Position numbers and translations under genes: made by a program
Shown: one piece after another, positions 7,159 to 10,736 of the stretch
Position numbering within the stretch: the stretch's first letter is position 1
Layout: the number at the start of each line of letters is the position of its first letter
The notes under the pieces: generated by a model
What the model was told of the DNA's origin: nothing
Databases searched by the model: none
What the model saw: the letters and a program-made list of their open reading frames with translations, nothing else
Source of the DNA: Flavobacteriales bacterium
Lineage (GTDB): Bacteria; Bacteroidota; Bacteroidia; NS11-12g; UBA955
Direction: 5' to 3'
NCBI GenBank assembly: GCA_947496375.1
Contig: CANMCY010000021.1
Location: 1 to 38,387 of the forward strand
DNA: 38,387 nucleotides

Positions 7159-8700
7159 ATGGAAATCGTAGTATTCAGCCTTGCCGGTATCTTAATAGGG
7201 TTGGCACTCGGATATGTTGTATTTGTTTTGCTGAGACGCAAACAAATCGAAGCCGAGCGCAAATCATTGATTGAAGAAGCCAAACTGCAAGGAGAAAATT
7301 TAAAGAAAGACCGGATTCTTGAGGCCAAAGAAAAGTACATGGGCCTAAAATCCGAGCATGAAAAAGAAATCAACCGCCGCAACAATGAGATGGCCAATGC
7401 CGAAAACCGCATTCGCCAGAAAGAGCAGAGCTGGGATCAGAAACTTCAGAACGTAAGGCAAAAAGAGGAAGAACTGGCCAAGGCCCGTGAGACCTTCGAA
7501 GCCCAGATGGAAGGCCTAAAAACCAAACAGCGCGACGTAGAAGCCATGAGAGAGCAGCAATTGCAGCAGCTGGAAAAAATGGCCGGTTTAAGTGCCACTG
7601 AAGCCAAAGAGCAAATGCTGGAGAACATCCGCATTAAATCTCACACCGAAGGACTCGCCATTGCCAAAAACATTGTGGAAGAAGCCAAGCTCAGCGCTAC
7701 CCGCGATGCCAAACGAATTGTGCTGCAGACCATTCAGCGCACTGCCGCAGAAACCGCTATAGACAACACCGTTACCTCGTTCCCGCTGGAAAACGACGAC
7801 GTTAAAGGGCGCATCATTGGCCGTGAAGGACGAAACATCAAAGCATTTGAAGCGGCTACAGGTGTAGAAATCCTGATTGACGACACCCCCGAAACCATTG
7901 TATTAAGCTGTTATGATCCCATCCGCAGGGAAATTGCCCGCGTTTCGCTGGAAAGACTGATAAAAGACGGTCGTATTCACCCGGCACGCATTGAAGAAGT
8001 AGTAGAAAAGACCAAAAAGCAAATCGAAGAAGAGGTGGTAGAATGGGGCGAAAGAACCGTGGTAGACCTCGGCATTACCGGTCTGCACCCTGAACTCATT
8101 CGCTATGTAGGCAGAATGCGCTTCCGTAGCAGCTTCGGTCAGAACCTGCTGAAGCACAGCCGCGAAGTGGCCCGTTTGTGTGCCACCATGGCGGCCGAAA
8201 TGGGTCTGAACGTGAAACTGGCCAAAAGGGCTGGTCTGCTGCACGATATTGGCAAAGTGCCCGATACCGACGAGGAGACACCACACGCGTTGCTGGGTAT
8301 GAAACTGTGTGAAAAGTATGGCGAACATCCTGAAGTAATCAATGCTGTAGGTGCCCACCACGACGAGATTGAAATGACCAGTCTCCTTAGCCCAGTCATT
8401 CAGGCCTGTGACGCCATTTCTGGCTCTAGACCGGGTGCAAGACGCGGTGATGAGCAATATGTTCAGCGTATTAAAGACATGGAAACAATGGCACTAGGCT
8501 ACCCCGGTGTAGAAAAGGCATTTGCCATCCAGGCGGGCCGCGAGCTGCGCATTATCATGAGTGCTGAAAAAAGTACCGATGACCAGGCCGATGTGCTGGC
8601 ATTTGAAATAAGCAATCGCATCATGACTGAGATGCGTTATCCCGGACAGGTGAAAATAACCGTTATCAGGGAAAAAAGAAGTGTTGGCGTAGCCAAATAA
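7159..8700 (+). CDS. rny: ribonuclease Y
   Basis: A 513-residue RNase Y. An N-terminal transmembrane helix (residues 3-25) anchors it to the inner membrane, a long coiled coil spans about 28-195, a KH RNA-binding domain contains GREGRN (221-226), and the HD phosphohydrolase domain has H333 and the pair H362-D363 in LLHDIGK. It is an endonuclease that initiates mRNA decay. The 76-bp gap after zapA includes AAGGAG about 12 bp before the ATG, one of the few Shine-Dalgarno-like sequences in this window. A strong terminator follows. Confidence 0.97.
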
Positions 8701-8721: not shown

Positions 8722-8755
8722 ACAAAAAAGAGGCCCCTTGTGGCCTCTTTTTTGT
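8722..8755. terminator. bidirectional intrinsic terminator after rny
   Basis: A 14-bp perfect stem (8722-8735 with 8742-8755), loop of 6, with A6 on one side and T6 on the other. It serves rny on the plus strand and the convergent gene at 8759-9325 on the minus strand. Confidence 0.92.
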
Positions 8756-8758
8756 TAA

Positions 8759-9325
8759 TTACGCCACCTTGCGGATCAAGACATTAATATCTTCTGCGGG
8801 CTCAAGGGTGTCAAAATCGGAGCGGATGGGACGAATTAAGGCACAACCGTCGCTAAAAACGATTTTAGGATTGCGAAAACGGTAATTGTCTATATTAAAC
8901 CGATACAGACGAAGCGCATGCGGGGGAATAGCATTGGGCGTGCAGAGGTAATGGTGGTGTGGCACATTTAGGTATTCGCTGTCGCTCTCCATGCCGGGAT
9001 CCAGGCACCAGGTAACGGCACACAAGCGGGTATCGATGCGCCAAAAAGCGTAATCATCGAACTGTGCGCCGTCATTTCGATGATTTGGATAGAACCAGTC
9101 TTCGCGATCCACAAAGTAAGGATACATAAAATCGAAAGAAGGTAATGCCTGGTGGGCATATACGGCGCCCCAAAGGGGCAATGCAAGGCCCTGCCTGGCG
9201 ATGAGCAGGTTCCGGTTTTTTTGGTTGTAAGTAACGTGCCAGAGGAAACGATCGTTTCTAACCGGATTTTCAAGGGTAACACTGCGTTTAAACAGCGGAA
9301 CATAAACTGAAGGATTTGTTTTCAT
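8759..9325 (-). CDS. unrecognised protein, possibly ADP-ribosyltransferase-like fold
   Basis: A 188-residue soluble protein. No confident family, but the order of short motifs is suggestive: LWHVTYN at 28-34, a G-L pair at 46-47, FWRIDT at 94-99, LDP at 108-110, YLCTP at 126-130 and IPPHAL at 133-138. The H-x-T, then G-L, then later I-P-P pattern recalls ADP-ribosyltransferase/RNA 2'-phosphotransferase-like proteins, where the first His binds NAD. This is a guess from pattern alone. ATG 9325 is part of an 11-base sequence that is complementary to the start of the transcribed leader, and a structured RNA with its own terminator lies just upstream. Expression is therefore probably controlled at transcription or translation. 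Confidence 0.6.
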   Translation of the reverse strand: MKTNPSVYVPLFKRSVTLENPVRNDRFLWHVTYNQKNRNLLIARQGLALPLWGAVYAHQALPSFDFMYPYFVDREDWFYPNHRNDGAQFDDYAFWRIDTRLCAVTWCLDPGMESDSEYLNVPHHHYLCTPNAIPPHALRLYRFNIDNYRFRNPKIVFSDGCALIRPIRSDFDTLEPAEDINVLIRKVA

Positions 9326-9339
9326 GATGTAATGGAATT

Positions 9340-9385
9340 AAAAAAGCCGGAAGCGGGGCGGAAAAACAATAAAAACGCACCCGGC
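9340..9385 (-). terminator. predicted intrinsic terminator in the leader RNA
   Basis: Minus-strand stem of 10 positions (8 Watson-Crick, one G-U, one U-U mismatch) between 9376-9385 and 9346-9355, a 20-base loop rich in U, then six U (9345-9340). It ends 14 bp before the start codon of the downstream gene and reuses bases of P1 and P3. Confidence 0.6.
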
Positions 9386-9492
9386 AATCCCCTGCCTCTA
9401 CGGTGCTCCCTGTCAAAGAACGAACCCCGGGCCTAGGCCACGGTTTCCGGTAATAGGGAGCTGGATTTGCGTTACATCATGAGCACAGTTAA
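9340..9492 (-). ncRNA. structured leader RNA or small RNA upstream of the 8759-9325 gene
   Basis: Read on the minus strand this stretch forms P1 (9468-9473 with 9374-9379), P2 (9455-9461 with 9405-9411, 7 bp) enclosing a GC-rich hairpin around the palindrome GGCCTAGGCC (9430-9439), and P3 (9393-9396 with 9383-9386): a three-way junction. An 11-bp perfect pairing (9472-9482 with 9322-9332) would close the whole unit and includes the downstream start codon. An alternative hairpin (9376-9385 with 9346-9355) followed by six U competes with P1 and P3. It could be a riboswitch-like attenuator or a free small RNA such as a 6S-like RNA. I do not recognise the class. Confidence 0.6.
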
Positions 9493-9498
9493 ACAATA

Positions 9499-9530
9499 CG
9501 AATATAGTAAAAATACGCGACAATTCCAAA
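9499..9530 (-). promoter_or_regulatory. predicted promoter of the structured RNA
   Basis: On the minus strand TTTG (9530-9527), 20 bp, TATATTCG (9506-9499). The box has one mismatch to TAnnTTTG and is identical to the one before the toxin-antitoxin pair. Transcription would begin near 9492, just before the folded region. Confidence 0.5.
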
Positions 9531-9613: not shown

Positions 9614-9686
9614 TGTCCGATGGTGTAACTGGCAACACGTCTGGTTTTGGTTCAGAAGAGTCTAGGTTCGAGCCCTAGTCGGACAA
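9614..9686 (+). tRNA. tRNA-Gln (anticodon TTG)
   Basis: A 73-base cloverleaf: acceptor arm TGTCCGA (9614-9620) with TCGGACA (9679-9685), discriminator A9686, anticodon stem TCTGG/TCAGA around the loop TTTTGGT giving anticodon TTG, and a T arm with GGTTCGAGCCC. CCA is not encoded. Reads CAA and, by wobble, CAG codons. It has its own promoter and lies 69 bp before prs. Confidence 0.95.
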
Positions 9687-9716
9687 CAAAACGCTGATTT
9701 GATGATATCTGTGCTT

Positions 9717-9755: not shown

Positions 9756-10736
9756 ATGTCATCACTATTAAACCAAGTAAAAATCTTCTCGGGCAGTGCT
9801 TCTGCCTCACTCACCAAAGGTATTTGCGACTATTATGGTCTGGAGCCGGGCGATCTGGTTGTAAACCGCTTCAGCGATGGAGAATTCCAGCCCGTTTTCA
9901 ATGAAAGCGTTCGGGGTTGCGATGTTTTTGTGGTACAAAGCACCTTCCCTCCCACCGATAACCTAATGGAATTGCTGATGACCATTGATGCCGCTAAAAG
10001 AGCCAGCGCCAATTACATCACCGCCGTAATTCCTTACTACGGGTTTGCGAGGCAAGACCGGAAAGACAAGCCCCGCGTATCCATTGCATCCAAAATGATT
10101 GCCGACCTGCTTAGTACTGCCGGCGCAAACCGTGTGATGACCATGGAATTGCACGCCCCACAAATTCAGGGGTTCTTTAATGTTCCCGTGGATCACCTGG
10201 AAGGGTCTATCATTTTCGTTCCATACATACGTAGTCTGCCTCAGGATAACCTGGTCATTGCCGCACCCGATGTGGGTGCCAGCAATCGCATACGCGAAGT
10301 GGCCAAAGCACTTAATCTTCCGATGGTTATATGCGATAAAGAACGCAAAAAAGCCAATGAAATCGCCAATATGACTGTCATCGGCGATGTACAGGACAAA
10401 GACGTGGTGCTGATTGATGACATCATCGATACCGGAGGCACGCTTTGCAAATCGTCAGCCATGCTGATGGAAAAAGGGGCACGCAGCGTAAGAGCCCTGT
10501 GCTGTCACCCGGTACTTAGCGGAAAAGCATACGAGAACATAGCCAACAGTGTACTTACAGAGCTGGTAGTGACCGATACCATTCCCCTAAAGCAACATTC
10601 CGACAAAATCAAAGTACTGTCTGTGGCGCCACTCTTTGCTCGCGCCATCCGCAATGTGCACGAAAACGGCAGCATCAGCTCACTGTTTAAACAGATTCAC
10701 AACAGTCAAACCAACCTGGATTTAAAAAGCAATTAA
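9756..10736 (+). CDS. prs: ribose-phosphate pyrophosphokinase
   Basis: A 326-residue PRPP synthetase, usual length. It makes 5-phosphoribosyl diphosphate from ribose 5-phosphate and ATP for nucleotide, His and Trp synthesis. Visible motifs: RFSDGE (38-43), the ATP-site flexible loop FARQDRK (97-103), catalytic-region His133 in MELHAPQIQGFF, and the PRPP-binding loop DDIIDTGGT (221-229). The start ATG precedes MSSLLNQVKIFSG, the normal N-terminus. rplY follows after 28 bp, probably as one operon ending in the terminator at 11357-11387. Confidence 0.97.
   Translation: MSSLLNQVKIFSGSASASLTKGICDYYGLEPGDLVVNRFSDGEFQPVFNESVRGCDVFVVQSTFPPTDNLMELLMTIDAAKRASANYITAVIPYYGFARQDRKDKPRVSIASKMIADLLSTAGANRVMTMELHAPQIQGFFNVPVDHLEGSIIFVPYIRSLPQDNLVIAAPDVGASNRIREVAKALNLPMVICDKERKKANEIANMTVIGDVQDKDVVLIDDIIDTGGTLCKSSAMLMEKGARSVRALCCHPVLSGKAYENIANSVLTELVVTDTIPLKQHSDKIKVLSVAPLFARAIRNVHENGSISSLFKQIHNSQTNLDLKSN

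Follow-up and report, generated by a model that had tools for sequence, protein, structure and literature searches.

The window analysed here, a stretch of 38,387 nucleotides in contig C21 of a 2.49-Mb assembly, carries on its minus strand a gene for a 188-residue protein (8759–9325, with the ATG at 9325–9323) that is restricted to a single genus and that we call the orphan gene. Downstream of it lies rny (7159–8700, plus strand), the end of which faces the orphan gene, and between the two convergent genes a GC-rich palindrome with T/A tails (8722–8757), which was read from the sequence and was not listed by the scan, is probably a shared two-way terminator. Upstream of the orphan gene lies the leader that is the subject of this study, and on its far side tRNA-Gln (9614–9687) and prs (9756–10736) are transcribed away from it. 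The congeners are freshwater Flavobacteriales known from metagenome-assembled genomes, and isolate names (for G006 and G002) suggest lake samples. All seven congeners (G000–G006) have the orphan gene in convergent orientation to rny, whereas tRNA-Gln and prs adjoin the unit in G000 and G004 only; the constant position at rny next to a variable neighbour on the other side indicates that leader and gene form one unit, at an old and stable place in the chromosome.

A search of 147 relatives for the gene returned seven matches, all in this genus (0 of the 140 others). The gene is intact in six of the seven congeners, with a remnant of its C-terminal half in G005, and five of the six intact genes are preceded by a full leader, the sixth (G004) lacking the 5′ half. 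The RNA was found in six genomes of the genus, as its 3′ part only in G004, and it is a single-copy element, seen only beside the orphan gene; RNA and gene are never found apart save for the partial leader loss in G004. The first-pass annotation had tied a structured RNA to this gene, and the tie holds in every congener carrying the gene intact, through part of the leader in the case of G004. In G005 (L037 535–801) the leader is absent, the gene is reduced to its C-terminal remnant and rny is intact, so that leader and gene have been lost together. In G004 (L032 1400–1500) a deletion has brought the tRNA-Gln promoter region up against the leader's 3′ half. This species is thereby a natural leader deletion mutant, with an intact gene but no promoter, closing arm or hairpin I (all described below). 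Farther afield, a structured RNA model run against 108 genomes of the order matched only inside the genus, and a scan of 84,980 species genomes for exact 20-mers found two congeners and one Bifidobacterium match, the latter probably due to chance, with no exact 20-mers in viral contigs. Outside the genus, the best match of a sequence-only RNA model (in G167, with E = 3.8e-4) and its five weaker matches show neither the boxA block nor the leader layout and were rejected as chance.

The orphan protein has no relative in Pfam, NCBIfam, PHROGs, PADLOC or the PDB, in agreement with the first-pass annotation, which did not recognize the gene. A profile search of 395 genomes of the phylum gave nothing convincing, the weak matches being dismissed because they sit in unrelated, longer proteins, and no relatives were found in viral contigs, phages or plasmids. 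AlphaFold, run on a three-sequence input, gave no usable fold (pLDDT 32). An ADP-ribosyltransferase-like fold, guessed from a resemblance in motifs, found no support: an hhalign comparison with Tpt1/KptA (PF01885), which covered this one family and used a shallow profile, gave a probability of 0.1%. The protein is 60–78% identical among the congeners, as against 95–100% for RNase Y, encoded by rny at the same locus.

A promoter lies at 9499–9530 on the minus strand and consists of TTTGGAA (9530–9524) and a −7 box, TATATTCG (9506–9499). In G000, G002 and G006 a distance of 24 nt separates the first T of TTTG from the −7 box downstream of it, and the box itself (TATATTCG or TAATTTTG) is found ∼30 nt before a GATGTAA motif; G003 has the −7 box without TTTG. 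The arrangement is similar to the sigma-A consensus of flavobacteria, which is TAnnTTTG between −12 and −5 (PMC9723704), and would place the start of transcription near 9494. A genus-wide promoter type, TTTATTTGGAA...TATATTCG (window 9499–9530; L083–L092), precedes unrelated genes and is 76–84% conserved over ∼40 bp; these include a glycosyltransferase gene and others, identified by reading the sequence. The promoter proposed at first pass is thus well supported, both by its recurrence in G002 and G006 and by its presence before unrelated genes of the genus.

Between the promoter and the gene, the leader core is 0.65–0.89 identical among congeners, as compared with 0.30–0.58 at four-fold degenerate sites of the gene. 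The leader evolves more slowly than synonymous positions in the gene that it precedes, and it is therefore a non-coding stretch under selection; a coding role was rejected since the lengths of its indels are not divisible by three. The loops are conserved as well, and so are the joining bases. Folding energy compared with that of shuffled sequences is not above chance (z = 0.17; −2.0 to +0.4 for the leader core), and the case for structure therefore has to be made by comparison. On that footing, we regard the conserved, structured, genus-specific RNA as real.

Covariation was assessed in the five full leaders (alignment A1); the same related sequences had guided the choice of structure, and five of them make for weak statistics. 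Over hairpins I and II together with the closing helix, 92% of cells are paired and three pairs, located in hairpins I and II, show compensatory changes; 2 of 500 shuffles scored as high, and sliding the partners against each other gave at most 46% pairing. With five leaders and three compensatory pairs, the support from covariation is modest. Hairpin I (9405–9462, minus strand) has as its base the helix 9456–9462/9405–9411, which corresponds to stem P2 of the first-pass annotation (GCTCCCT/AGGGAGC; 90% of cells paired over the four inner pairs), carries a boxA-like block on its 3′ side and is recovered by an unconstrained consensus fold of the leader core. Hairpin II (9377–9406, minus strand) is the best-supported helix in the alignment. 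It consists of an outer helix, GCACC/GGTGC (9402–9406/9377–9381), and an inner helix, GGCAG/TTGCC (9392–9396/9383–9387), closed by a GGGA loop, with 100% and 96% of cells paired, respectively, and one compensatory change in each: GCACC/GGGTGC to GTACC/GGGTAC in the outer helix (G001) and GGCAA/TTGCC to GGCCA/TGGCC in the inner helix (G006).

All pairings that had been proposed from the single sequence are present in the window. They were thought to build a three-way junction of P1, P2 and P3, and two of the three stems are conserved: P2, at 90%, and P3 (GGCA/TGCC, within hairpin II), at 96% with one compensatory change. The stem meant to close the junction, P1 (AACGCA/TGCGTT, 9468–9473/9374–9379), is not, with 58% of cells paired in the four-pair helix and 67% in the whole set, and the junction closed by P1 was consequently rejected.

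The terminator helix (3′ helix, 9346–9385, minus strand) is formed by the arms GCCGGGTGCG/CGCTTCCGGC (9376–9385/9346–9355), which make nine of ten pairs around a 20-nt loop; 91% of cells are paired, with no covariation. It is mutually exclusive with hairpin II, and in this form the earlier proposal of competing folds near the gene stands. A run of six U (9340–9345, minus strand) follows the helix and makes it terminator-like in the window species. The U-run is found there and in G004 (five U) and is absent from the other four of six species. Of the intrinsic terminator proposed at first pass, the helix is thus conserved and the U-run is not: a transcription terminator was rejected as a general feature, and transcription attenuation is not the general mechanism. 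In four of five species the 3′ helix of the full leader is predicted to be at least equal in stability to hairpin II, which agrees with one fold giving way to another while transcription proceeds.

A further helix, absent from the first-pass annotation, connects the two ends of the leader. Its 5′ arm, TCATGATGTAA (9472–9482, minus strand), is complementary without mismatch, over 11 nt, to the start-codon region, TTACATCATGA (9322–9332, minus strand), which contains the ATG, and 90% of cells in this 11-bp closing helix are paired. The complement to the start codon measures 11 nt in G000 and G002, 9 nt in G003 and 8 nt in G006, with shuffle p values of 0.0005–0.0075 (∼0.0005 in the window and G002). 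The original form of the helix is kept in four leaders and broken in G001, in which another helix, GTAAAGG/CCTTTAC, lying just above the ATG and present in the minimum-energy fold (p = 0.057), possibly replaces it. The linker beside the closing-helix motif is unconserved (identity 0.10–0.60), so the motif itself is under selection. The closing helix is thus well supported by comparison; it should be noted that it is never altered on both sides, so that its sequence might be conserved for some other reason. The phylum does without Shine-Dalgarno sequences, and structure at the start site tunes translation (PMC6847099); a conserved helix closing over the start codon in such a phylum points to translational control.

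The longest invariant block of the leader, TCGTTCTTTGAC, includes the boxA-like sequence GTTCTTTGAC (9412–9421, minus strand), which is invariant in five of five full leaders and lost in G004 and G005. In the few assemblies in which the rRNA boxA of the genus was read, GTTCTTTGAC matches the boxA that precedes 23S rRNA (the ITS boxA) in G003 letter for letter, and GTTCTTTGA is common to the leader block and the 16S leader motif. The 10-mer occurs six times on both strands of the 2.49-Mb genome, corresponding to an expectation of ∼2e-4 per 170-nt leader in a test that was made after the motif had been seen. The base following GAC is C rather than A in three species, and the last A of the consensus is found in G000 and G001 only. 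Furthermore, the block is base-paired inside hairpin I, and NusB/S10 are expected to bind boxA as a single strand. We put the odds that the boxA functions in the leader at somewhat below even; as the best candidate for the input of the leader, it has a plausible role. In the leaders of suhB and CKO_00699, Nus factors bind boxA and repress both genes, and in a survey of mRNA leaders most boxA sequences lie within 50 nt of the start codon (PMC5725501).

Comparison among the congeners demonstrates the conservation of the leader, its linkage to the gene, hairpins I and II and the promoter. Beyond these, we consider it likely that the RNA is a cis-acting mRNA leader, and translation is slightly favored as the main level at which it would exert control. 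The main reading, to which we assign a probability of about 0.55, is accordingly a cis-acting leader that acts mainly by closure of the start codon. An RNA of ∼170 nt starting near 9494 would form the 5′ leader of the orphan gene, and pairing of its 5′ end with the start-codon region would close the ribosome entry site. The domain closed in this way would enclose hairpin I and a switchable 3′ region that adopts either hairpin II, the first to form during transcription, or the competing 3′ helix. NusB/S10, together with the other members of the Nus complex, would bind the boxA of hairpin I, shift the balance between the folds and thereby set translation, and in the window species and G004 the U residues after the 3′ helix may also end transcription. 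Against this reading, G004 keeps an intact gene without promoter, closing arm or hairpin I. A more speculative and rather doubtful version of this scheme would have the occupancy of the boxA in the hairpin by NusB/S10, sensing free S10 or rRNA synthesis, open or close the start-codon helix and so couple the orphan gene to ribosome production.

The same unit could be explained if the orphan protein, or another protein, bound the leader and repressed translation of its own gene. The joint loss of RNA and gene in G005, and the fact that they are never seen apart, would fit such an autogenous leader, which nevertheless appears improbable given the rapid divergence of the protein (60–78% identity) downstream of a conserved leader and given that no RNA-binding family was found for the protein. 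Slightly less probable is the transcriptional riboswitch of the first-pass annotation, in which hairpins I and II would be the aptamer for a small molecule, with the 3′ helix as the expression platform. It would account for the presence of a conserved and structured leader beside a gene, for the two mutually exclusive folds at its 3′ end and for the conservation of loops and joining bases. As to an aptamer-like structure that covaries, three compensatory pairs in hairpins I and II stand beside an unconserved P1. Known riboswitch classes recur before metabolic and transport genes across many lineages, unlike this leader, which is confined to one genus and one gene. The Rfam covariance models found no match to the leader at gathering score, bearing out the earlier statement that the RNA class was unrecognized; permissive-mode matches (mir-483, UCA1 and others) were discarded as chance. 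The U-run is present in two of six species, there is no positive sign of a small-molecule ligand and boxA accounts at least equally well for the block that varies least.

A separate small RNA (6S-like or acting in trans) that happens to be located upstream of the gene and is ended by the 3′ helix is given the same low standing. It would have its own promoter and, in the window and G004, a terminator-like U-run, and no 6S RNA was found elsewhere in the seven congeners with RF00013 or RF01685, a result that keeps the 6S alternative from being dropped altogether; RF00013 matches control genomes and RF01685 matches none, so that the absence of RF01685 says little, and the 6S RNA of the genus may have diverged beyond the reach of either model. 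On the other hand, the leader resembles neither 6S model, its conserved pairing extends into the start codon, the U-run is absent from four of six species, and the loss of promoter and hairpin I in G004 and of the whole RNA in G005 is unlike a housekeeping RNA; the leader is thus unlikely to be 6S RNA. Least probable of all is a DNA element (an operator or a mobile-element site), for which the inverted GATGTAA/TTACATC at the ends and the lack of covariation in the closing helix could be cited, and against which stand the compensatory changes in hairpins I and II, the single genomic copy at the same chromosomal place in all congeners and the location downstream of the promoter.

The proposed start-codon-closing leader has its nearest likeness in the enterobacterial suhB and Citrobacter koseri CKO_00699 leaders (PMC5725501), where an mRNA 5′ leader also carries, ahead of the start codon, a boxA that matches that of the rRNA of its lineage and is shared between species. 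The present case, known from sequence alone, differs in phylum, in its unrelated gene, in the distance of the boxA from the ATG (∼87 nt), and in that the boxA lies within a conserved hairpin, with further conserved structure that closes over the start codon. With the boxA elements of the rRNA leader and spacer of the genus it shares GTTCTTTGAC (23S) and GTTCTTTGA (16S leader), whereas it is not linked to rRNA genes and no other similarity to rRNA operons was seen. It resembles transcription attenuators and terminator riboswitches in the mutually exclusive hairpin II and 3′ helix and in the U-run of two species, and differs from them in the U-run missing from four of six species, in the lack of a known aptamer and in the 20-nt terminator loop. 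Translational leaders that sequester the start codon likewise contain a segment complementary to the initiation region; here, there is no Shine-Dalgarno sequence, as in the phylum generally (PMC6847099), and a long-range helix of the 5′ end encloses the whole leader.

Even without a role for boxA, the leader represents a new structured RNA with no counterpart in Rfam, of a reach limited by its being known from one genus only. If the main reading is correct, it would offer a small, testable model in which a leader is much better conserved than the protein under its control, and boxA-dependent control of mRNA, experimentally tested in enterobacteria, would extend to another phylum, one without Shine-Dalgarno initiation.
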